From: Tridacna crocea
Lineage: Eukaryota; Mollusca; Bivalvia; Cardiida; Cardiidae
Reading direction: 5' to 3'
NCBI GenBank assembly: GCA_943736015.1
Contig: OX031059.1
Coordinates: forward strand, 19,902,001 to 19,966,000
DNA: 64,000 bases
The notes beneath the pieces are model-generated. The model was given only the letters and a program-made list of their open reading frames with translations, did no database searches and was not told the origin of the DNA. Shown in pieces: positions 5,289-38,200 of this stretch. How positions within the stretch are numbered: position 1 is the first letter of the stretch; each line of letters opens with the position of its first letter. The position numbers and the translations under genes were made by a program.

Positions 5289-8200
5289 CTGAAACAGATT
5301 GAAATTCGTATTTAAACTACAAAGGCAAACATGGAATATGCCAAGTCCTCACGTGAAATGGGGCATTCGGACATTTGCGTAAACAGTCAGCGCAGGCTAA
5401 TCCAAAACAACACTTTCCATTTCTTATGTCCTTTCTGTTTTGAACGAGTCTATTATAGCACAAACTGTAATGTAGTCACAAATTATCGTCTCGGATCAGC
5501 CTGCGTGGACAGCGCAGGCTGATCCGAGGCGACACTTCAGGCCAAATTCCCCTTTCTGTGTGTTGCAAACCACAACATTATATAATGATACATGTATTTT
5601 TAGCCAAGCCTTTAGAAAAGGGGACTTAATGCATGTGCAAAACGTACCGAGCCAGGTCAGCCTACGCAGTTACCGCAGGCTGACCTGGGCCGAGATAATT
5701 TGCTTTTGGTCTATTTTTCTGTATGCCAAAGGACCAGTGTACCTCATTGTTTGGTCGGTTGTTAGAGAAAATGGATTTATGGATCCTCAGTTGCAATGCT
5801 GATCTGCTTAGTATCATGTCTACTAATATGCATAAATCTTATGCCAGAGTATAGCTTACTTTTTTATCATTAGCTACTGGGAATATAATAAAATGTGGTG
5901 ATAACGAGATAATTACTTCGAAACTACGAGATGAATAACTTACGTAAAAAAGTGAGTAAAAATTACTACATGGCAATATCTGGAGGAAACTTTGTACTAG
6001 TGTGATATTTCATGTGGCTCTTTACAACTGTTTACAGCTACTGTCATAAGTTACAACTGTTTACAGCTACTGTCATAAGTTACAACTGTTTACAGCTATC
6101 TTCATAAGTTACAACTGTTTACAGCTACTGCCATTAGTTTCAACTGTTTACAGCTACTGTCAAAAGTTACAATTGTTTACAGCTACTGTCACAAGCTTTT
6201 CTGCTTTTCTGGCAGATAGCATTACTCTCATTCGTTTCTCAGGATTTGATTCTGTTTTTCAATGAATCTGATGGGAAAAGAATAAAACAAAATAGACGGG
6301 CGAAGAAGTAAATTCTAGGAAACATCTTCTTTCTCTTATTTTTTACAATATTTTCTACACCTTCGGGGAATCTTCCCTTATTTGAAATGTTGCCAGCAAA
6401 TATTTTAAAGGGTAAGTTAAAACCTATCGTCTAGTAAGTAGATCTAGTGAAGCAGGAGAAAAATCGGCATTGAAACTTACTGTTCTTCCACATGTCAAGT
6501 TAAGTATCAGTCCAGTAGTCGCACACACAGTGGCATGTCCAAATAATACCAGGAAAACATATTTCCAGCCATCCAGGCTCACCACACCCATACTTCCTCT
6601 GTTGACAAAATGTAAACTTGTATTTGTTATAGATTCTAAAATACGTTTTGTTATTATTCCAGTCATATCGCTCCACCAGTGCGCCTATTTCTGGATTTCT
6701 GGAGTTTCTTATATCACTTATCTCATTTAACATTACATTAGCCCAAGATCTTAATTGGTTCACAACATAAATTCACAGACACAATGTTCAGCGGTGAAAT
6801 TGCAGTGAATCATATTGCAATGAATTTTGGCTGAATTGAAAAACGACCAATGCTTGGATTTCAAGCCCTGTGTGTTACATGCTGAACTATCGGGCATTTT
6901 AAGTTATTTCCATTTATGTTTATGAATATATGAACAATAATAAAGGCTACAAGAGCACATCATACAAACGTGTCTCACCTACCAAGATAACCATATCAGC
7001 AACGTCAACACCTCAGTAGTATAGGGAACTCTTTGGACCCAAACATAGATGACGTATTTACTACGTAATTGGCGACCATATTTTTTTCACTTTTTGTAAC
7101 TCATAGCCGTAAAAGGATTAATTGCTTCTAGTAAAGGGCGGCAATCTAAGATGACTTGGTTACAAGCATCCGTTTTTATAGGTTTTAGCTGTCCTAGTTA
7201 CTTACCTAGGTTTTTTAGGAAAAAGTCGGTCGCCTTCGCTTAGGAAAAAATAGTGGCACTTTACGGAACTGACTCACATATTTGATCTAGGATAGGGCAG
7301 CGGACATTGAGAGCTATGTACTTAATCTTGGGGAAGTTACATCAAAATGTTTTATGTTTAAGATGTTAAAAAGATATTCCTAATTAATCGTGTCATGTAA
7401 AACTAAACTTACTTTGACGAATTTATCATAACTTGGCCAATTGCAAGGCTTGTTAAACCGACCGTTAAATCCAGTAAACAAGAAGCTATTCCATTGGCTG
7501 AACCAACTAAACGATGGGGAACAATATGGGGTATGGAAGACCAAAGACTCACCTGAAAAGTAAAGTAATAACCCTATAGCTGCCAATCCGACTCACTGCT
7601 TTTTTGAAAGACTGTTTAGATAAAGATCACCCTGTGCAAAACATGGGTTCAGACCCTAGATCTGCACTATCGGCAAACAGTAACCTGTTGTCTGTTCCTG
7701 ATTTACTTCAAATGGCAAATGGCAACAAACAACCATTCAAGATAATTCTAAGCGCCTAATGGATTAAAAGTGATGACATTAACCCTTGTCCTGCAGAGTG
7801 AATTAAATGAAATTTTTCAGGCCGATAGTAAAAACCCAAATGATGACACCTGAAATGTATTTTTTTTTTTTGGGGGGGGGGGGAACTTTCTCCTTATTGG
7901 ATAGTGTAGATCCAAGATCAGATTGCACGATCTGTACAGTCTGATCTTGATCTACACTGTCCGAAACGGGTCAGTGAGGCGCACCCTAAGGGGTAAAGCT
8001 GGCCTGAAGTTTTAATCCAAAATTAATCTGTACCTCAATGTGAACCAGATATCTTGGAATGTAAACAAAAGATAGTATATGGTATGTCTGCTATGGCGTG
8101 ACAAACGTTGCAATATTCGATGTCAAAATATTCATTCCAAAACGGAAAAAAATTGTTCGATAAAAAAAATATTTGTTCCCAAAACTAAAATTATCGAATA

Positions 8201-17200: not shown

Positions 17201-20200
17201 CTGCAAGCTTGAGAACAGGGAGTCACTGATTTGATCACTGGCTTGGCCAATTCAGACTTTTTCTTTTCAGAAACAAGAGGGCCATGATGGCCCTGAAGTT
17301 GCTCACCTGAGCCTTTTTGACCACACATGCCCCATTTCCAATCACTTCCAAGACATGAGTATCAGACTGAAAAAGTGGCCATTAGAGTGTATACAAGGTT
17401 TTTCTAGGACTTGACTTAGTGACAGTTTTTTTAACCCAACATGACCCACTTTAAACTCATCTAGGATATCATTAACCCTTTGCAACACGATGAGTACTTT
17501 TAACACCCCCTGAAAGAGAAGGCTTTTGAAAGCATTGTGGGAAAAGGAGAAAATGCTGGTTACCAGCATTTTCTCCTTTTCTCACAATGTTTTCTACCCT
17601 ATCAAAGAAAAATCATTTCATATGAGCCATGTTAAAACTCTTATCTACAAATGCTTTTAATTTCGACAGATCTAAAATTTTGTTGTGTGGTAAAGGGTTA
17701 AGGAAAATATTCTGACAAAGTTACATGAGAATAAGATTGACAATGTGGCCTGTAGAGTGTACACAAAGTTTTCCCGAGATTAGACCCAGTTACCTATTTT
17801 CTGATTGGTGGCTTTACCAATTCAACAAGAGATATTTGTAAAACATGTATGCCCCCCTAATGGCATCCAATGTGATTATAAACTCTTACGTTCAAAGTGT
17901 AAAAACGAACAAAGGGTAATTACTCAAAAATTATTAATGATAAATTTACAATTCTTGGGCACTGTACTTCCCATTTATGTGAACTATCAACTTTTAAAGT
18001 TTCATGATTTTACCTCACATACTTTTTGAGTTATGCTCCGGAAAAAAAATAAGTACGAAAATCAACAAAGGGCAGTAATTGCAAAAATATAATGGGCAGA
18101 GTTATGGTTCTTGTGCAATGCACTTCTCCTGAATAAGATCTATCCACATATAAAGTTTCAAGATTATACCTGAAAAACCTTTTGAGTTATGCTCTGGACA
18201 AAAATTAAGTATGAAAATCAACAAAGGGCAAAAGCTCCAAAAATATAATGGGCAGAGTTATGGTTCTTGTGCACTGCACTTCTCCTTAATAAGGTTAATC
18301 CACCTTTGAGGTTTCAAGGTGATCCCTGAAATACTTTTTGAGTTATGCTCCAGACAAAAATTAAGTATGAAAATCAACAAAGGGCAGTAACTCCAAAAAT
18401 ATGATGGGCAGAGTTATGGTACTTGTGCACTGCACTTCTCCTTAGTGAGATCTATCCACCTATGAGGTTTTAAGATAATACCTGAAATAAAAAAATTAAG
18501 TATGAAAATCAACAAAAGGCAATAACTCCATTAAAATGTGAAGGGTAGAGTTGTTGTTCTTGTGCACTGCACTTTTCTTTAATGAGATCTATCCACCTAT
18601 GTAGTTTCAAGATGATACCTGAAATACTTTTTGAGTTATGCTCCGGACAAAAATTAAGTCTGAAAATCAACAAAGAGCAATAACTCCAAAAATATGATGG
18701 GCAGAGTTATGGTTCTTGTGCACTGCACTTCTCCTTAATAAGATCTTTTCACATATAAGGTTTCAAGGTGATACCTGAAATACTTTTTGAGTTATGCTCT
18801 GGACAAAAATTAAGTATGAAAATCAACAAAGGGCAATAACTCCAAAAATATGATGGGCAGAGTTATGGTACTTGTGCACTGCACTTCTCCTTAATGAGAT
18901 CTATCCACCTAGGAAGTTTCAAGGTGATACCTAAAATACTTTTTGAGTTATGCTCTGGACAAAAATTAAGTCTGAAAATCAACAAAGGGCAATAACTCCA
19001 AAAATATGATGGGCAGAGTTATGGTTCTTGTACACTGCACTTCTCCTTAATGAGATCTATCCACCTATGAGGTTTCAAGATGATACCTGAAATACTTTTT
19101 GAGTTATGCTCCGGACAAAAATTAAGTATGAAAATCAACAAAGGGCAATAACTCCAAAAATATGATGGGCAGAGTTGTTGTTCTTGTGCACTGCACTCCT
19201 CCTTAATGAGATCTATCCACCTATGTAGTTTCAAGATGATACCTGAAATACTTTTTGAGTTATGCTCCGGACAAAAATTAAGTATGAAAATCAACAAAGG
19301 GCAATAACTCCAAAAATATGATGGGCAGAGTTATGGTTCTTGTGCACTGCACTTCTCCTTAATGAGATCTATCTACCTATGAAGTTTCAAGATGATACCT
19401 GAAATGGTTTTTGAGTTATGCTTCGGACAAACTTGGTCTACGGACCGACCGACCTACCGACCGACAAGTGCAAAGCAATATACCCCCATTTCTTCGAAAG
19501 GGGGGCATAATTACATGTACATGTAAAACTTACACTACAATAAGCAATCCCATATTTCAAAGACCCTGAGGTAGCCATCTTTTGAAACATTGTGGGATAA
19601 GAAAGAAAGGCAAATAAACAGCATTTTCATTTTCCTCCCGACACGACATACTTTCTCCTGGGTTGTTAAAACATGGGATTCTGTTGTATAGGCTGATTAA
19701 ACTCTGCACAAATAACAAAGAAATGATCTATGCTCTAGCAAAGGGAAATTAGAGCATCCGAGAGATCAAATGTGCCAAACAAGTAATCACATATTTATGG
19801 GCCCATGATAAAGGATCCATATAATCATTTTTTCCAATAACTGAGTGCACCATGAGGTGGAGTGGTCCATGAGCGTGCAGAAAAAAACACAAATAATGAA
19901 ATGCTCCGACCCATGCTTAGATACACAGACTGACATGTCTCATTGCTTTTTTGCTGGTGCATCAAGCCTTTTTCACAGAGGATGGCTATTTTTATTTAAC
20001 TCATTATGTTCAGTTATGACCCAAATATTGATTGTTACAGGTGAACAGTCATTCAAAACATCAACAAAAAATAATCTGCCCAGCCAAAGAGAAACAGCCT
20101 TTTCCGAGTATGGACAGAAGGTTTTTCAAGAGTCCATCTCAGTGACCTAGTTTTTGACCCTATGTGACCCAATTTATATCTCGTTAGAGTTCTCAACTTC

Positions 20201-23200: not shown

Positions 23201-26200
23201 TAAATGTGACTCAAAAATTGCAAATTGTTTTGGGAAGGATAGAGAACATTGTGGTACATGTAATTGGAGAAAAAAACTGGTTAACAGTATTTCTTCTTTT
23301 CCCACATTTCAAATGTCTTTTTGCTTTGGGTCACTAAAACTTGGGATTGTGCAGTAAAGAATTAAAGTTTTTCTAAACAATGGGTGTTTACACAGCATCA
23401 TGTTCAACCAACAAAAACTAAACTGGTTAGACTTTAAGTAGCCGCCAAAAATTTGAAGGTGAACAAATCCCTGAAAAATGCTGGCGAGTTGAACTCCTTA
23501 AGATCACTTTAAAGTATGGCAGTCATTGGGTTAAAAGTTTCCAAATCTTTAATTGTACTTGAGATTTGGCTGTTCTAGCACTGACTGGACTGGTACAGTG
23601 ACAATCAAGACAAAATCAGTTGAAAGTTTGGCACAGATTTTGTGTGCAAGTTTGAACTCTTAAAAAATGCTGAACATAAGAGAAAACCCTGCATTTAATC
23701 AGTTAAATTTATGACGGACTTGAGATGGTACAGTGTACAATAAATGTCCAAATATGAAAAAGATCACTGTAGCATCTCATTATTGAGAGTACACACAATC
23801 CCTACTTTGGAAAACATTGCGGGAAAAGAAGAAAATGCTGTTAACCAGCATTTTCTCCTTTTCACACAATGTTTTCTACCATTTACAAAACAAATTTCAA
23901 AGTTTCAGTCTACAAATGCTTTCGATTTGGACAAGCCTAAAATATTGTCGGTTAGTAAATGAGATAAAGCTTGGAAATATTTCTACAAAATTTATAGTAC
24001 TTTTATAGAATCAATTCTTTAACAGAACATAGCTTTGTACATTCATTAAGTCCCATTTTGCAAGAGCATGACTCATGTGATTCAGAAGGTGTTCAGAATT
24101 CAATGCAACTTCTAATGCAAGTGCATTCCGAATTTCTGTCCGTCGCGGTAGGTAGATGTTTCAATTAAATCCAGTAACTTAAATGGTTTCCGGTGCATTC
24201 CGGTGAACTTTCGCCGCTCTAAATCTTATGGCGAAAAGTAAATGCCACTGCTTCCACAACAAACGTTCATGTCTTACATTAGCATGTATGTCATTCACTT
24301 GAAATAATTCGACAATTACAACTTTTCTTCAGAAATTAAATGAAATAAATAATTTTCCACTTACTGAATAAATCTATATTCTGTTGGGCAGCTAGCGTCT
24401 GTTGCGTAGCCATGTTGGAAATCTAACAACAGCATTGTCCAATCAAATAAGCCGTTACTAAATGGGCTTTCCCAAATCTCATTGGTCAATTATCGAATGA
24501 ATATTTTTTCAACTGCAATCTGTAAATTTTTATATGTTGCAAAATTTTTTTTTTCATTGGATAATTTTTTTTTTTCATTGGATAATTTTTTTTTGTATTC
24601 GATATTTATCTTTTATTGAATGTATATAATTTAAGTTTAGAACAAATATATTTTTATCCAATGAATATTTTTTTGTTTTCGAATGAAAATTTTTTTTTCG
24701 AATGAATATTTTTTCGTTTTAGAATGTAAATTTTGATATCGAATATTGCAACGTTTGTCACGCCATAGTCTGCACACTGAAATAAGTGTAATCTAAATAA
24801 CGCTACTTACGATCGTTACAGTGAAGGAGACGCCTATCCATATGTAGCCTATGAGTGGTGGCATGTCTGTAAAAAGTAGTAATGGACCAACTGGTATTGT
24901 TGACAAAGCTCCGAGAAATGCTACCCAGCCTCTGTGACCTACTTTGTCCTGTCGTAAAATATGAAATGAGTATTTAGATTCTAATGTTTTTGTTGTGTGT
25001 GTGTCTAACGTAATAGGATACCGGAAGAAGATTTACTGAGATAGATTAAAGTAACAACAAAAAAGGTATTAGAAACATGAAATGGAATAGAATAGAATCT
25101 TTTTTTCTTTTGGTGAAAGGTTGAAATTCATTTTATTTGGTGAGGATCATATCGTAATATTCTGGTTCGTGTCTACACCACTCGTGAAAAGGTGAACTCC
25201 AGTATTTACTTGATATCAAATACTCTCTATGTACATACCAAAATCATCCCGACAAATGGTGATAATACGACGGATACATCATATATCACACCGTTAATGT
25301 AGGAGGAATCAGTTTGGGCATAACCATATCTGTCTTGTAAGAATTTACTGAAACACAAAGTTATATAAATTGTATCTTTATGATATCAATGAAGTAAACT
25401 GTAACAATTAAGAGCTCTTCCTTCTTTCTGCATAATAAGACATTAATTTATGCTTTTCTTACAATCTGCATTTTTAGATTTAAGAGAAAAAAATGAACTA
25501 AAAAATGTAAAATGATACCCCCATCTCAATAACCACAAAGTTCAATCATGCACCATTTACAAAAGCCATCTAGACTCGGGTCAAGTACTCGTGAGTATAC
25601 ACGAAATTTTCTGATTTTGGTTCTCTTTCTCTATACGGCATGACAAAATTCTGGGCTTGTTCCAAATTTAAAGGATGTCAAGATGAAAAAGTGGCCATAT
25701 TACAAATAATGGCATTTCTATTAGAATGCCAGGCTACACTGTTGGAAAAGGGTTGATTTTTTTTCATTTCTTCTTATCCCAAAATCATTTTCAAAATCTT
25801 TCTCCATTTGGATGGTTAGAGCAGCGGTAAAAATTGTAGATCAAGGTGTAGAAATGACAGAAAGTAGTATAGATTCCTCGTCAAGAGAACAAGTTATTGA
25901 AAAAGGTACTGTATGACTAATTGTCATCACATACAAATACCATTTTCGACCTGTGAGCTGACATATGTACAAACCTGGATATACCAAACTGAACAATACG
26001 ATCTTTTTCATGTTTCTTTTTGCTTATTTGTGAAGCCCCTTTATTTAGTAAAATTATCCAGGCTTATAATTGTAACAAAACTCAGTTTACTAACCGCACT
26101 TAAGCAGCAATAGGGAACATGTCACCCTTTATTTCGCAGCCACGGAAAAATTGCGCCGAAAACAAATTTCAATATTTAGTATCTCATTTCAAATGATTTT

Positions 26201-29200
26201 CTTTTCTCACATTTCCACTCGATGATACAGTATTATTCACTGCAGACTAGCATACCTTCCGTTTGCTGTAAATGGAAGCTGGAAGCCGTAGTAAGAGGCG
26301 ACCATTAGGGGAGACCGGGGCTATTTGTTACAATTTTTCGTTTTTCTTGGATAAAAAATTCAAATATCCGTATATCCAAACAATTCTTATTTTGAAACAA
26401 ACCTTATCAACAGAGGTAAAATATGAACACTTATATGCGAACAAACTTTGAACAGGTTCCTCAGAAAATTGATTTTTTCCATCAGAATTTTCTGTAACAG
26501 TTTGCCCCACGTTTGGGGCAATGTGTTACAAGGAGCGGGGCAAAATGTTACATGAACTGCTTCAATGGCATCTTGATCTTAAAGGCACTTGCACACTCAT
26601 AAGCTAGTAGGCGTACATCACATGGAGACAAACCACCATAAATAATTGCTGCTTTTGTCGGGTACTGAACAAGAATGACCACTTGGACCTTGTCAAAGAC
26701 AGCTAGATGACCCTAATGGAAACAACTGAGACCCCTTCAACTGAACCTTTTGTTTTCGCTTGTTTGACGTAGCAGCAAAGCGTCATGGGTTTCATATTTA
26801 TACTCCCCATAACGAAGTGGAGGGGGTATACCGGAATCGCCATGGTTGTCCGTCCGTCCGTGCGTCTGCAGACACAATTTTGTCCGGAGCTTTTTTCCTA
26901 CAGTTTTTCAAATACTGCTCTGAAATTTACACATAATGTTTGGGTACATATGAAATTGTGCATGTGCAATTTTCAAATGAGAATAACCCTTGATGTTTTT
27001 TTTTTTTTTTTTTCAACAGTAATTGCAATGAAATTCTATTGGAAAAGCAATGACTGCTTTAAATCTGTAATGGGTCTAAAATCTAAACAAGAGATTCACA
27101 TGCAGTTGCAATGCACAGATGCCAGTGCTTTAAATTGTAAGGCGAAAAGGGGTATAAATCATACAAAAATTCCCCTAGTGTTACCTATAACATCCTAGTG
27201 TAGGACCGGAAGTTCGTTTTGTACCGTCATTTGCGATTGTATAGCGATGTTTGGTCGACTGAGAGCTCTCAAGTCATCCGATTTTGATCACTTGAGAGCT
27301 ATCAAGGGACCAAACGTCGATGCACAATTGCAAATGACCGTAAAAATGAACACCCGGCCCTACATTTTGAACATAATGTGTTTGACTTTGGTAGTAAACT
27401 TGCTTTCAGATTTTCGAGTAAATATGTTCATGAATGATTATCAGAGATTCTAACGTTACACAGTAGGCCTATCAGGGTATATTGCAGGACGACAATGACA
27501 TTGACGACGACGACGGAGGCAGGGCTACGACAATATCTTGGTGTACACGGCCGAGCTAAAACGATGCACAATATGAAATAATTGACGGGGTAAACTGTTA
27601 CAGTGTAACAATATGCCCCATCTCTTTGTAACATTTTGCCCCAATCACTTTTTTGGACTTTGTCTAAATGCCAAATTTTAAACGTGAAGGTAGTGAATAA
27701 AATCTTTACATTGAATGAACTACAAATCATTTCTATACAATAACATGTAAAGATATCAAAAATATCTTAACGGGTTACTATACAAATCGAATTTTTCATA
27801 CATCAGTCAAAATTTACTTTCGTGCCAGATTTTGTGTTTTTTTACTCTAGTTTGTTACGGTTTTATAATTCTTCTTCGGTCTGTTCCACAACGTAAGTAA
27901 AAAACATTGCGCTTTTACGTCATAGCAGTTTTGGCCTCATCAAACGCGTCATCATTGAACAATCTCTCCTGTAACAGATTGCCCCGTGTATCATTTAGCC
28001 CCGGTCTCCCCTATACACATGGCAACGAAAGAGGCAGGAAGTTGTTTAATACTGGAACACTTCTGTCGAAGAAATACATATCACATAGTAATTCAATGGC
28101 CCTGAAGTGGCATTACAATGATAGGAAGAGCTGAGAAAAGATCACTTTTTTTTGCCATCGATTATTTTGGCATGAAAAGGTCGAAAGTATGTCAATAAAA
28201 GCAAAATAACTGTGGAATTAACCATCAATATAGAAATTAAGGCTCAACCCACAGCCTCGGATTCGTATCTCCTGGTTAAGTTTAAACGAGAACGTTTCTA
28301 ACTCTTGAACTGAATAGCTGAGACGGGTATGCATCACTTACCTTTTTCGCTTAACGTTCACATGCCAGCTCTGAATGGCTGCACAGTCGTATTTAACCAG
28401 CCGTCAATGCCTGCCTTTGTGACAAGTATATCTAATCTGATTGATCGAAATATTCTATCTTTTCCAGAGAATAGCTTAGTTCAAGCGCCGGACAAGTTCT
28501 CGATATTTTCTGTCCATTGGGAACAAGAAATACCATGATAAATGGTATACGGCGTAAATTTTGCCACCAAAAGGTCTTCAGGGGTCCGAGGAATAAAAAT
28601 CTCTGCAGAATTGACATGTCGATATTTCAAATCATTCATTCGAATGCTATACCGAAAAGTAAGCCAAAAATCAGCGCTTTAAGCTACGCCGATAAAATGC
28701 TGCCATCCCAATGGACCGTTTTAGTTGATTAAAAAGAAGAAGAAAAACCAACCGGCAACGGTAAAAACACGCACAAAAAAAACCCAAGTCAAACAGAAGA
28801 AGAAAAAACTTACAAATGGAGTTTTCTCCTTTATTGCAATGACGGCGTTAGGGTGATACTTTGTACCGTACCAACCTAGGCAACAAAGACATATCGCAGA
28901 CAGGAAACACGAACTACAAATCGCAGCACCTGCAGAGTTAAGTATTCGTGATATAATTAGCCCATGGCAAAAATGCATTTTGTAGGAGAGTGTATCGTTG
29001 ATAATTTGTGAAAACATGTGTTTTTGTTGAACATTTTTGGTGAGGCAAAAACCTTTTGACAGACGAGAAATTGTTTGCACAGGCGATCTGCAACAAAAAG
29101 CTATTGAAAGAGACAAAGGAAATCACTGCTTAGGCGGGAGTCATGCTCTGTGAAAAGATAGTTTAGTGCATCTGCAGAAAGTATCGATTCATATCAGCCT

Positions 29201-32200
29201 GCACAGTCCACATGGGTGGATACTTTTTCTGCTGTTTTTTAATTTTGTGCGTGTGAATGGACCATTCTAACTCATTATTTGGTTGGTTGTTGGACAAAAA
29301 TGGATTCATGGTTGGCGACGACTTGCTTGGTATAACGCATTACTTTGATGCGTCAAACACTTTCCCTCCACCACTGACGGTTATCCTAACATGACAGTGA
29401 AAAAATTTAGTATAAGTTTTTGTTTATTTTGTTTCTCAGTAAAACGTAATGGACATTATCATTTAATTCTACTGGTGACCATGAAAAAGACTAAAATGTT
29501 ATTCCAGTTTAGCGTTTACAAGACCTTTTTTAAAAGTGTCTGACCTTTTCAATCAGACGAACTTGATGTACAAGTCTTTTGAAAATATAAGAGGAAGAGA
29601 TGTATCCACCATTTTCTCCTTTACTAATAAAGTTTCATTCTAATAAATATATATAAAAAAAGAAAAACGTAACTCGTGATGTACACCATATCTCGTCTGC
29701 AAATGCTTTGACCTGTCGAAAACTTAATCCTATAGTTTAGAGTTAAACGACCTTGTTTAATATTTTTGACAATATTTTGGGGAAAAAATAATGGCTCTAC
29801 GCAGCCTTTTACCCATAATGTCTCTTCCCTTCAAATAGCTTACTTGTGCCATATTTGGCTTGTCGTCTGCGCACGCCCTCAGTTTGGATAAGTCTTAAAC
29901 TTTCTCACATGGTTGAGAATAAATGAGATGACTGACTTAATAAGCGACTTTACATACCCACAAATAGTGTTGGACAGAGACCAATCCACTTGGGCATATT
30001 TGATGTGAGTATAAATGTGAGTACACTGCCTATCCCCATTGTAGATACTGCTATACCAAACGCTAAAGCAAGTTTGTCCGGGAACCAGGAGGCTATAACA
30101 CGATCCCTAACAACTGGAAACAGAAATAAATTTAAAAAAATATAATTATATAAAAACAAACAAACAAACAAACAAATGTAAACAATTTGGTCTAGCTGAT
30201 CAGTTATAGTGTTCCTTTGAAACTTACGAAAAACCGTGGCAGATAAATAAAAATAGCTTTTTGAAATATTTGACCTTAGTTGTTTCGTTCCTTTGAATAT
30301 TTTCACCAATACTTGTTCAAATCATACGCAAATAAACGTTACAATGAGAATTTCTTGTACAGAAAGGATAATTTTCAAATTTTCATTCCTAGTGTGTTAC
30401 ACTTTTTGTTGATTAAACAGATGTGTGCAGTCTTTCCAGTCAATACCATGATTTAGAGTTGCATTGACCAGTCAATATAATTATCGAGACCGACACTTAC
30501 TTCTTGAAGAGCCGGTTCCCGCACCAAGTAACAAGCGTCCGCACATCATGAGAGGAAACATGTAGACGGAACCCCGAATAGACTGCAGGGAGGCAATGGC
30601 GAATACAAAGGAACCCGAGGTGGCGATACCAGTAAATACTAACGCCGATACTGAAAATTGCAACAATGACTATAGGTGGTAACCTAAAATGCTTCTAATA
30701 GATTAAGCATTTGTCAGTAATACCGCAAAATTTTAATGACATTATCTACAGTAGACAATGGCAGTATCCATAATGGATTGTAAATAGCAGGATCCATAAT
30801 GCGTATTAAACAGCAGTATATACATGTACAATAGATTTAAAAGGCAGTACAAACAACGGAATATAAATGGCAGTATGTGAGAATGGCACTATTTGCGATT
30901 GGTTGTTGATGGCAATATCCTCGATGAATTGTGCATGACAATATGTCCTACAGCTCGTAGTTGGCAGCATTTGGCACTGTTGTTAAGGGTAACTTTTCGG
31001 TGGGTTGTGCGATTACTAACAGCTAGATCTTAATATAGACTGTAACCTCCATTCTTAGTCTACGGTAGACCCACCAGGCTACAGTCCGATGTACAGTGAC
31101 ATTTTCCAGCTACAGGATTTTTAAAAAATGGCAAAAATTTGGTAAATTCTGCTTTAGACTGGAAATTTTCAGTTGATCTATTCTGCAGTTTTATCTTTAA
31201 GAAAATAATGAAGTAAACATTTTAAATTTCACTCTTACTTACGCCTGTTTCCCATGCGGTCGATGATGAAGCCAACGGGGAGAATCAGCGCGGAACTTCT
31301 ACAAAACAATAATGAGATCATTTTAATTTCTGTTCTGCTATTTAGAGTTTTTAATAAAGTTACATCTAGATGTATTATGAGACATGTACATATGTACATG
31401 TCAATGATTGTATCAGGTAATTTCTTCCAGTCGAACTTGTGGCCTTTTCTACCCTATCGAAGAATTTAAGCTCTACTGTACAAAGTCCACATTCGTCCAC
31501 CTCGTATGCTTTCAGCTTGGAAGTATCTAGAAATTTGTTGTTGTGGAAAATGTGACTATACACTGATGGTGTCTGTGCTAAAAGTTCCATGACTTTCATC
31601 AATTATCGTATTCTTATTAAGAGATAAGACTTGTGCTGATTTAAAGCCATGGAAACTAGAGTTTTTACTTGTAAAACTAAGTGTATCTTAGGTGTAGAAC
31701 TTACGTCCAGGAGGAGATGGTGTAGAGTAGATTATACCTTGCTGCACCCATACCCAGGCAATCATCGCAGCATGACACATTGGCAGATTGACTACAGTTT
31801 GTTGTCTGAAGGAAATAAATATGCCTGACCAAAATTAAACAGCCAAAACTCGTTTTTTATTTGAAAAAAGCTTTGAAATGATAAATAGCCCAGCATATGT
31901 GACGACATTTAAGGATATTGTTACTAAAATATTGGCATTTTATTAAGACTCAAAGATGGAAGCCCTTTGAAAAACATTGTCGGAAAAGGAGAGAATGCTG
32001 ATAATCAGGATTTTCACCTTTTCCTACAATGATTTTCATCCTGCTGGACACAAATTTCATTTTTTGAGTTACATTTATTTAGACGTCTGAAAATGCTTTC
32101 ATTTGGACTAGTTTAAAGTTTTGTCGTCTGGTAAAGGCTCAAGACTCAGAAACTCCTTTCAGGCAACCTACCCATTCATTGGTAAATAAAAAATCGTACG

Positions 32201-35200
32201 ATATGTTCATGGAACCAATGACACGCTTCATAAATTGTTTTTGAAAACGATATTCCGTGGGGCTAATTACATCGCGGGAAATGAAAAAAGATGTAATGTA
32301 TGTGATCAAAGCATTATGGGTAACTGATCAACGACAGTACTGAAAAAGCAAGATATTATTAACTCAGTACAACTTTATATAAATAAGAATGTTATGGGAG
32401 AGTACGAGTGCGATTACATTTGAAAACGGGTACTTTGAAGTTTTTTTTTGTTATTGAAGTGAAATCAACGTTGCAAGAAGAAAGATTATTCTTTATATCT
32501 CTTTTTCACTTTTTCCAACGATATTTTGAATAATCTATTCCTAAAGACGAAAGAAGTATACACGTAGAGGGCAATATGGAAACAAATTAAATTAAGATAG
32601 TTTCAGTACATCATGTGTAAATTTTTGCTGTCGATCATATCATTAATTCCCGCGTTTACAGTCTACCTCATCTTCGCAAGCCAAAGCTGACGACCCTTGG
32701 CGGATCGAGCTTGATGGATGCAGCAGAATGAAATGGCTCGTAGCATTTCATCGTTGATACAAATAGAATTAGGTTGCGACCTTTCGAATAGGAGGTAAAC
32801 ATGGAAACCTACGTGGATGTCTGCTTATCGCTTCATGTTGAATGATTGTATTCGTAAGAGGTTCGTTAAACGATATTTCATTGGCTTTCAGAAATATGAT
32901 GTAAAGGGGGGTAGTAACCAGCATCCAATAGAGGGCGCATTGCAGGAATCTCGTAATCGGGCTCAATCAGCCAAGGTAAGATCCACGTAGTGATCATAAC
33001 CTTGGTTCGCAAAGATGAGTATATCTTGGGCAAATAACATATCTTTTATTATTAACCTGGACCATAACATTAATAGAAACCGGTGTTACATACTGGTTGC
33101 CCCTCGATCTGTGCCTGTAGGGCGCTCGGAATATCCATGCAGAAATAGATGCCGACAACCAGCATACAGTCAAACACTAGTAATAGATATCGTCCTTTCC
33201 CTGAAATAAGATGTGAACAACAATCACTTGTTAGTCATTATTATATTCATTATTATTGTTATTTTGATGTACGTGCTTATGGTCGTAAACATTATTCTAG
33301 TTACATTACAGAGGCCAGATGCGTTTCTGCACTATCTTAAACAGGACCTCTGCGTAACATTCTTTCTAAGTCGGTACCTTCCCCATATAAACATCGTCTG
33401 AACTGTGCTTATCGATAAGAAAGGAATTGATTCTATTGCAACGATTATCATCGATACTCTTTAGTTTCATTAAAAAAAAGGGCATGTTAGATAACCTCAA
33501 GGGTTCATGTCCATCCCAGATGACCTTGAAAAAAGGAGGCATACAACCAGTAGCCTAGAAATTGTTGAAAATTGTCACGATATTATAATCTGTTTTATGA
33601 CGTCACTAGAACTTTAACCTTGACATTGGCATTGCGCTTATCAGCGTTCAGCTTACTCTAACCACTAATTCTTTACCAAACGACAAAGTCTTAGGCTTGT
33701 CCCTATTGAAAGCGAATGCAGACGACAAAATTAAGTTTGCTCAATCGAGGAAATGCGCCTTTAAATGGTTGGGAAAAATGTGGGAAAAGGAGAAAATATT
33801 GTCTACTATCATTTCTTCCTTACACGCAATATTTTACAAAAGCCTTTGTCCATGTGGGAAAATATGTAGGCTATTAAAGAATTACACTGTTTAATAAATT
33901 AGATGCAATATTTGAACCAACGGTAAACTTGCAAACCAGCATTTTCTCCTTTTCCTACAGTGTTTTCTATCCTTCCCAGATCTAATTTTGAAATTTTCAG
34001 TCACCTTTATTTTGTCGTCTGCAGATGCTTTCAACTTGGACCAGTCTAAGATTTTGTCGTTTGGTAAAGAGTTAAACCCCCCTTGCCAAAACATGGCTCA
34101 TATGTATGGGCACTGCTCTTAGAATTCATTTTCCTAATGCATTATACCAAGCAAGTTGTCGGACAAGATGGATCCAATGTGTCTTAACCCATTACCAAAC
34201 GACAATATTTCAGACTGGTCCACATTGAAAGCATTTGCAGACGACAAAATTAAAGTGACTTAAAATGTGAAAATTGTTTTGTGTATGGTAGAAAACATTG
34301 TGGGGAAAGGAGAAAATGCTGGTTACCAGCATTTTCTCGTTTTCCCACAATGTTTTCTAACGGCATCTTTTTCAGAGGCGTCAAAAGTAGGGATTGTGTG
34401 GTAATAGGTTAAAATCGACTGAACTCTGAGAGTAAGACATGAGGGAGAATGGTACTATGACATGCAGAAAATATTTATCAACACCAAAAGACGTTGACCC
34501 TGGTCTGTTTGTACGGTTTGTGAAGCCTGACATAAATCTACGATTTTTGCAGATACACTTAGCCGTTGACAATTTTTCTTATTTCACACAAGTTAGGGAT
34601 CAGCATAGTGTGACACCGTTGGTGAAAGAAATGTACTACTACTCTGTACATGTATTTCCAAAACTGACTTGCGTACATTTTCATGTCAGTTTAACTTTGC
34701 CAAAAAAAAGGGGGGAAAATAGATCCAGGCGTGGTAAGGCTGAAAGTTGATTTATTGTTAGCTTTTAAACCAAAAGGTAATGTACGGGGATCCTTGGAAC
34801 TATTTTCACCTCGCATGAACAATCCTGTTAGAATAGAATAGAATCTACTTATTGCACAGTTATAGCCATTACATGGGTTAAAAGGAAACGTACCATATAC
34901 AAGATACATTTGCATGTACATAAAAAATATGGCTTCATGCATTCCATGTTCGTAAGAATAAATCAATAAAATTTTAGAATTTATTAAAGATGTTAAAAAA
35001 TACCATTTAGCACACGAAAAGCTTTTTTATAACAATTTCAAGATTCGTTTGATTAAATGTTATCTCAAATATCAACTTATGTCAAATCCTATGTATCTCG
35101 ACAGAAATCCTTCAAAGTTTATCAGTTTGTTTGTACACTCTTGGGTTGAAAAGGCTAAGCAGATTTGAGAAAAGATGAACATTGGTCGATGAAATTTTAG

Positions 35201-38200
35201 AAGATTGTTTTGTTTGTTTTAATCTGTATTACTAGAACACTTCAAAATGTCATAGCATCAATATATTGTGCAGTGAACACAAGATGGACTCTCTGTTCAA
35301 AAGGGCACGTTTGACTCTAGGAACTGAAAGTATTTGCGGACGACAAGATAAATGACACTCAAAATTTATATACAATATTTGATTTTAGAAGGTTAGGAAA
35401 CATGACTGTATGAAAGGGATAAAAAGATGGTCAAGCATTCTATCTTTTCCAAATTTTTTTTTGTACGTTGTGGTCGTTAAAACTCGGGATCGTTTCTTTA
35501 ACTTTTTACCAAACGACAAAATTTTAGACTGGTCAAAATTGAAAGCATCTGCAGACGACAAAATAAATGTGATGAAAAATGGAATTCGTTTTGGGAAGGG
35601 TAGAAAACATTGTGGGAAAAGGAGAAAATGCTGGTTACCAGCATTTTCTCCTTTCCCCATAATGTTTTCAGAAGGCTTCTCCCGCATGGTCATTAAAAGT
35701 CGGGATTGTGTGTTAAAGAGTTAACGGTTTAATGTTAAAAATTGATGAGGGGATAAAAATTTAAGGACTTTCTTTTCATTTCAAGGGTGTTTTATCAAAA
35801 TGTTTATCAAAAATTCGTATACTATAGATCCGTTTAAGGCTGCATATTGTGTATGTACAGTCTGAGTTTGGTCTAAAATATCCAACATGAACAACCACTA
35901 TATTCTCAAGAACGTTCGTTGTCTTATTCTCCAGAATATTCTATATTTGAGAGTAAAACATCTTCTGATTGGCTAAACCAAATGGTTTACAAAATTTTAG
36001 ACTGGTCAAAATTGAAAGCATCTGCAGACGACAAAATAAATGTGATGAAAAATGGAATTCGTTTTGGGAAGGGTAGAAAACATTGTGGGAAAAGGAGAAA
36101 ATGCTGGTTACCAGCATTTTCTCCTTTCCCCATAATGTTTTCAGAAGGCTTCTCCCGCATGGTCATTAAAAGTCGGGATTGTGTGTTAAAGAGTTAACGG
36201 TTTAATGTTAAAAATTGATGAGGGGATAAAAATTTAAGGACTTTCTTTTCATTTCAAGGGTGTTTTATCAAAATGTTTATCAAAAATTCGTATACTATAG
36301 ATCCGTTTAAGGCTGCATATTGTGTATGTACAGTCTGAGTTTGGTCTAAAATATCCAACATGAACAACCACTATATTCTCAAGAACGTTCGTTGTCTTAT
36401 TCTCCAGAATATTCTATATTTGAGAGTAAAACATCTTCTGATTGGCTAAACCAAATGGTTTAGCCAATCAGACGATATGTTACTTTCAAACTTTGAATAT
36501 CTTGGAGAATGAGACTAAGAATATTCTCAAGAATGGTTGTTGAATACAGACCCTGGTCTTGATCTACATTATCTATAGAAACAACACAAGTCATGCTTTG
36601 AATCCAAATAGGTGTTAAAATAATCCAAGTTTAACAAACTCAAGGGAGAAGCCGTTTGAAAACCTTGTGAGAAAAGTAGAAAATGCTGTTTCTAGCTCAT
36701 AAAAAAATATTATCGGAAGGACATTTATTTTGTTATCAGCAAATGCTTTGAATTTGGACGAGTCCAAAATTTTGTTGTCTGGTAAATATTCAACCCCTAT
36801 ATCCTGCTGAATAACTAAAGATAAATTTTAAAAGTCGACAGTAAAAGCCCGCATTCCGCTATTTCAAAGTTATATTTTTGAAGAGAAATATCTCCTTATC
36901 GTACAATGTGGAAGCAAGATCAGACTGCGAGTTTTTGGCAGTTAGTGAGTCAGCGGTCAGTGACTCGCACTTAGTAGCCTCAAGGGTTAAGAAGTTTTAA
37001 TGACAGAACGAACCATCGTTACGAGAGACACGACGTCGGAATGTCCGTCCTTCCTTTGCACAACAGCTTTCATAAAAGTAAAAGGCTATGTAGATCTCGA
37101 CCAGACTACATGACTGAGCAGTTCGATCTTTGATCATCACTTCCTGAGAGGTGAAGAAAACATTCTGGTACCAAAATAGAATCAAATTGTTCGTAACTGC
37201 AATATTTGGAAACATTTCATCGCGGGAGAAATGTTCACTTCATTCACTGATTACGATGTATGGGTTATTTCTTTACGAAACGACAAGGTTTTTAGACTTC
37301 CATATTAAAGAACTTGCAGACTACAAATTTAATATTTATCAAATGTTGACAATTATATTTCCGACATTATTAAACATTGTTTGGGTGGAGGATATACTTT
37401 TTACCGCCATTTTCTCTGGTTCAACCATGTTTTCAAAAAGCTTCTAGCCCAGGATCGTAATAACAGGACAGTTTGGCAAAGGGTTGTATCGTAAGACCAC
37501 ACGTAGTCGACCTAATATTAAATAGTTAATCTTCGTATTGAAGACCGTGGCCTTTAACTTCTGTGGTCCTTTGGCTGCTAAACGCGACATAAGGACCCTT
37601 TGCAGACCTTGTAGATTCAAGATCAGACTGCACAGAGTGTGAAGTCTGATCTTGGATCTACAGTGTTTGAATAGGAGATATTTTCCCTTTCAAATAAGTT
37701 TGAAATAACTATACTTGAGTTTTTTACTGTCGACTTTAATTTCACTATAGTTATATAGCAGATTCAAGGATTATCTCTGTCCAAGACGGCAACGTACTGT
37801 CCATGTTGAGAGCTGCCTATCTTGAAAGTATTTGCAGAGAAATAGAATATGACTCAAATAGTCAATTGTGTAGAAATAGGGTAGAAAACACCGTGTAAAT
37901 AGTAGAAAATATTTGCTACTAGCATTTTTCTCTTTTTTTCACTAGGTTTGCAAACGTTGTGTACATTGTACCTCACAGTCGTTGGTCAAAGACCTGACTT
38001 GGCTCAAAATTATTGACATAATGTAGACTTCCTACAGGCCAATGATAGCGAGACACAGTCTGTGGTTCCAGGTACACCAATAAGGCAAGATTGTAAAAAA
38101 GACTTTGAAATATGTCTTGATCTTTTAATTTTCACTACATAAAGATATCATTATTATTATTATTATTATTATTGTTATTATTGTTATTTGGAGTTTTATG

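Follow-up and report, generated by a model that had tools for sequence, protein, structure and literature searches.

Insertions of DNA transposons in exons are reportedly handled by SOS splicing, in work that Zhao et al. are said to have published in Nature in 2026. AKAP17A and CAAP1 are SOS splicing factors; to our knowledge, SOS splicing has never been tested in molluscs. In passages of a 2026 review (PMC13247085), it is described as a process that excises transposons from the mRNAs of animals, with ligation by RTCB and a nuclease that is unknown. For pogo transposons, the portions of PMC7386202 used here give terminal inverted repeats (TIRs) that do not exceed 40 bp in the majority of families, and a size range of 1.2 to 5.2 kb; features of the pogo family were compared with this source and with parts of PMC7325037.

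We analysed a stretch of 64,000 nucleotides of the bivalve Tridacna crocea (positions 19902001 to 19966000 of the 69.8-Mb contig OX031059.1), hereafter the window, in which an exon of an MFSD1-like gene is interrupted by a TIR element. In the reading that we consider probable, a pogo-type element mobilised in trans inserted recently into this exon and left an allele that is likely null and possibly segregating. Specifically, a non-autonomous, internally deleted pogo-type copy would have been mobilised by transposase provided in trans, and its target would have been a TA within the exon that encodes a middle membrane helix of the MFSD1-like transporter. The sequence itself establishes the element with its TA flanks and its family, the split of the exon, and the recency of the insertion.

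The interrupted exon and its gene

Exon D of the MFSD1-like gene is located on the minus strand and comprises 101 nt, which the element cuts into an upstream half of 49 nt (28014 to 28062) and a downstream half of 52 nt including one TA (26256 to 26307), the latter being followed by the donor GTATGC. If the element and one TA are left out, positions 28062 to 28014 join 26307 to 26256 to restore the 101 nt, with entry in phase 0 and exit in phase 2. The rejoined exon forms one stop-free frame of 256 amino acids with exons B (30501 to 30650), C (29958 to 30113), C2 (28814 to 28929), E (25239 to 25347), and F (24811 to 24948), all on the minus strand, and AG before and GT after are the flanks of the MFSD1-like exons. 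The perfect frame that the earlier note had predicted upon removal of 26308 to 28011 and one TA is thus borne out by the 256-residue reading. Exons B, C, and E were delimited by frame reading and tblastn, exon C2 by frame reading and alignment to scallop proteins, and exon F by alignment to scallop proteins, having given no tblastn match. The short halves of exon D likewise gave no match in tblastn with scallop proteins, and a Pfam run on four single MFSD1-like exons returned none. For the outlying exons, homology support is of variable strength: on the upstream side these are exon A (31243 to 31298, minus strand; weak tblastn match, E 0.13), a further exon at about 31834 to 31707, and an open exon with approximate limits of 33100 to 33198 (minus strand), and on the downstream side an open exon with approximate limits of 7427 to 7567 (minus strand), approximately 17 kb after exon F. 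The description of the gene as otherwise intact covers the located exons, which include neither its start codon nor its final exon.

The rejoined protein is 43% and 42% identical over 256 residues to two scallop MFSD1-like proteins (P0001 and P0002), and neither alignment contains a gap at the exon D junction. MFSD1-like proteins of the scallops Mizuhopecten yessoensis and Argopecten irradians were the named proteins among the six matches to the joined fragment. Mouse MFSD1 (8r8q), the sole PDB sequence found at E ≤ 0.001, aligned to the rejoined protein with an E value of 2.5e-15 and was ungapped at the exon D junction as well. The inverted ends, the flanking TA dinucleotides, and the ungapped homologue alignments across the join confirm the initial claim that a TIR transposon interrupts the coding sequence of an exon in an MFSD1-like transporter gene. 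In P0006, a homologous protein of 194 amino acids, a piece of a Tc1-type (DDE_3) transposase reads straight into MFSD1-like exon B sequence, which suggests another transposon beside the same gene in a relative.

The genome searched comprises 1.05 Gb in 31 contigs. With the rejoined protein as query, six matches were obtained from 17 candidates, five of them in the gene's own locus and one distant (C4:45358755; 41% over residues 50 to 115, E 1.4e-4). This single protein search of the genome revealed no close second gene copy or second haplotype; the distant paralogue may share or back up the MFSD1-like function. An alternative intact exon for the helix, raised beforehand as a competing possibility, was sought and rejected, as a peptide search of the window gave the two halves only and the protein search of the genome gave no other close copy.

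Two repeats were observed elsewhere in the window. Two identical 54-aa frames lie about 470 bp apart at 35776 to 35940 and 36249 to 36413, with neighbouring frames repeated too, a pattern which we read as a recent local duplication. Tandem 51-aa frames (LCPSYFWSYCPLLIF...) at 18031 to 19330 form a minisatellite-like array with units of about 156 bp.

The element, its siblings, and a candidate transposase source

The inserted element spans 1,704 bp (26308 to 28011). Including the flanking TA on each side (26306 to 26307 and 28012 to 28013), its inverted arms measure 27 nt each, at 26306 to 26332 on the plus strand and 27987 to 28013 on the minus strand, and are 89% complementary. Inside the element are further repeats of the GTAACA...GCCCC type, some inverted and some direct. 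A 61-nt inverted repeat at 27218 to 27346 (80% complementary, 7-nt loop), which the sibling copies have too, is perhaps a nested small hairpin element. When the genome was searched with the 27-nt end pattern at up to three mismatches, 98 matches (21 exact) were obtained, compared with 0 for a reversed control, which excludes chance for the element ends; since the matches include both ends of many elements, they do not represent 98 elements.

At least 21 other places in the genome are 95 to 99% identical to the window copy over the right approximately 1,030 bp, and further places show 84 to 94% identity, 40 of 1,941 first-look candidates having been scored. A search for other copies of the TIRs, which had been recommended, yielded both end-pattern matches and close relatives. 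Both ends were present in 34 of the 37 sibling loci fetched; 29 of these have a flanking TA at each end, and in the other five one end shows a changed base or alignment. Siblings examined in full were mostly 2.44 to 2.52 kb long, relative to which approximately 780 bp are missing in the window copy at a breakpoint about position 26975.

What remains of a coding region in the window copy are two decayed transposase pieces on the minus strand. These are located at 26566 to 26733, with 80% identity to residues 71 to 126 of the frame of a relative designated L052 and one stop, and at 26724 to 26825, with 68% identity to residues 41 to 74 of the same frame. No Pfam transposase frame was found in the window element or the 2.48-kb copies. 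L052, a relative of 4,465 bp, shares the ends of the element, is flanked by TA on either side, and carries a 759-codon stop-to-stop frame matching DDE_1 with an E value of 1.3e-16 and 61.1 bits (cut-off, 22); DDE_3, OTU, and PHD match this frame under the curated Pfam cut-offs, and HTH_Tnp_Tc5, the candidate for the HTH/CENP-B-type DNA-binding domain of pogo transposons, reaches 17.6 bits in L052, below its cut-off of 22.2. The full-length relative for which a search had been proposed was thus recovered, with the qualification that L052 itself probably carries an internal deletion, because its DDE_1 match does not begin until position 47 of the profile, and because other copies are longer by approximately 117 bases between residues 201 and 197 of the L052 query match. 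The sequence flanking L052 on one side (around 113) recurs in inverted form on the other (around 4577; AAATGCTGG / CCAGCATTT), i.e., the target is palindromic. Three further places contain open frames of 762, 762, and 766 amino acids that are 53 to 65% identical to L052. One end was seen for each, as a match to the end pattern with three mismatches at a distance of about 750 bp; in some of these places, the match to L052 contains a stop close to its N-terminal end. The decayed pieces together with the L052-type relatives point to the window element being a non-autonomous pogo-type copy, the transposase for which was plausibly supplied in trans from the same genome.

Compared with the majority of seven siblings, the window copy differs at 11 of 1,698 sites, 5 of which are private; the siblings in the same alignment differ at 9 to 15 of 2,466 to 2,477 sites. 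Judged by these five private substitutions in 1,698 sites, the insertion is recent on an uncalibrated scale, and the private changes could be older than the insertion at exon D. The assumption of a recent event, made at the outset, fits this count and the 95 to 99% identity of the siblings. The accompanying claim of an active source element held in so far as L052 and the 762- to 766-aa frames provide a plausible source of transposase within the genome; for its other part, the family may still be active today, to judge by the identity of the copies and the open transposase frames.

Predicted effect on the transcript and alternative explanations

Reading from exon D into the element, the first in-frame stop is a TGA at 27991 to 27993 on the minus strand, so that translation of transcripts retaining the element would terminate seven codons past the last normal residue, and skipping of exon D would shift the frame owing to its length of 101 nt. 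With a premature TGA in the one case and a frame shift in the other, the allele is, most likely, null or else much reduced in function. Potential splice sites were assessed with rough scoring matrices, in a scan for GT-AG pairs at a distance of 50 nt or more whose donor and acceptor both fall within exon D or the element. Under these matrices, the gene's own donors score 0.11 to 4.33 and its own acceptors -0.17 to 3.96. Five pairs maintain the reading frame and leave no stop in it; the highest combined score among them is -2.69, for a pair whose use would remove most of the helix, and one of the five preserves the length with five residues replaced, at a total of -14.74. The GT at 28018 and 28016 and the AG giving an exon start at 26320, all near the boundaries, score poorly, and the previous statement that the boundaries supply neither GT nor AG was therefore right in substance. 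Within exon D and the element, these rough matrices revealed no good GT-AG pair that restores the frame with the helix intact, which makes rescue of this allele by ordinary splicing unlikely. The allele is likely young and possibly segregates with an uninterrupted allele. Such segregation is made plausible by mussels, in which, according to PMC7653742, genes show presence/absence variation as well as hemizygosity.

The same scan bears on the idea that the element works as a new spliceosomal intron, as described in parts of PMC9860276 for TIR elements with short target site duplications that turned into introns in other lineages (Introners). An Introner or an ordinary intron was rejected here for lack of good GT-AG splice sites inside exon D and the element, the only frame-keeping candidates being the five pairs of which even the best deletes most of the helix. 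Moreover, none of the 34 siblings was seen in a coding exon, as judged in the unannotated genome by a Pfam scan of 39 of the 97 listed junction-spanning frames, from which exon insertions without a Pfam domain could escape. The single match, FkbM, belonged to the sibling L045, which is located in an intron 75 to 80 bp upstream of an FkbM methyltransferase exon. Overall, we regard an intron function as highly improbable. It is also very unlikely that the MFSD1-like gene was already dead and the insertion merely adds neutral debris to a pseudogene: while the located exons include neither the start codon nor the last exons and the downstream intron is about 17 kb long, exons B to F can be read through in a single open frame, bear splice sites, and contain conserved motifs, the flanking exons at 33198 to 33100 and 7567 to 7427 are open as well, and the insertion is, by its divergence, recent. 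A chimeric join in the assembly can hardly be credited at all; although a single assembly underlies the analysis, a misjoin is not expected to produce exact TIR-to-TA boundaries like those of the siblings, nor exact restoration of the exon.

The remaining alternative concerns the mRNA rather than the gene. In this case, the element ends would pair in the transcript, the resulting hairpin would be excised by SOS splicing, and RTCB would ligate the exon halves, leaving the allele partly functional. In the predicted fold of the 1,807-nt RNA comprising exon and element, the element ends pair over 18 consecutive bases with probabilities of 0.85 to 1.0, and the predicted end duplex reaches -47.6 kcal/mol, compared with a mean of -19.5 and a minimum of -31.4 in 500 letter shuffles. 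This strong pairing makes RTCB-dependent SOS splicing a testable alternative. The RtcB family is encoded in the genome, with five exon matches on contig C7, and a metazoan pathway with RTCB ligation is given in the passages of PMC13247085. End pairing, however, comes with any TIR element and is uninformative on excision; the 3′ end region folded alone behaves like the shuffles (z = -0.44), and precise, frame-restoring removal is not guaranteed. We consider partial function through SOS splicing unlikely. The fuller proposition, that the RTCB-dependent SOS pathway removes this natural, recent exonic insertion of a pogo-type element from the mRNA and that the host tolerates it for this reason, is unlikely as well. 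If it were true, the known range of the pathway would come to include molluscs, and pogo elements in nature.

Comparison with described systems

Young exonic TIR insertions in wild animals constitute material for mRNA-level transposon removal, new introns, and presence/absence variation. At the present locus, the empty site can be predicted cleanly, the family is known, a transposase source is probable, and there is one target gene. It is a clean natural case for asking whether animals cut transposons out of mRNA, and otherwise an ordinary insertional mutation. To substrates of SOS splicing it is similar in that a TIR element with predicted RNA end pairing resides in an exon and an RtcB gene is present; it differs in being a natural insertion in a mollusc, known here from DNA sequence alone. 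With the Introners, as far as described in the relevant parts of PMC9860276, the window element shares the insertion of a non-autonomous TIR element in a coding exon, but it has no usable GT-AG splice sites at or near its ends, and recurrent exon insertion was not seen among the sampled siblings. The interrupted gene resembles MFSD1, a lysosomal dipeptide transporter (8r8q; scallop P0001 and P0002), in its ungapped alignment over 256 residues and deviates from it in that the exon for a middle helix is split.

Among known transposons, the element is closest to pogo. Unlike pogo, the window copy has no transposase gene and retains pieces only, and the frame of L052 shows weak matches to OTU and PHD, both below cut-off, two words that are absent from the main texts of PMC7386202 and PMC7325037. 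In common with pogo, which belongs to the IS630-Tc1-mariner group, the window copy and most of its siblings with both ends have a TA target duplication, the 27-nt TIRs match the length of less than 40 bp, the full-length relative L052 has a DDE_1 transposase, and its 4,465 bp fit the range of 1.2 to 5.2 kb stated in PMC7386202, in the portions used. On these shared features, rather than on placement in a tree, the element is assigned to the pogo type, a family that the earlier note had not named. The insertion of a non-autonomous pogo-type transposon in an exon is an ordinary type of mutation, of which this locus is a new instance.
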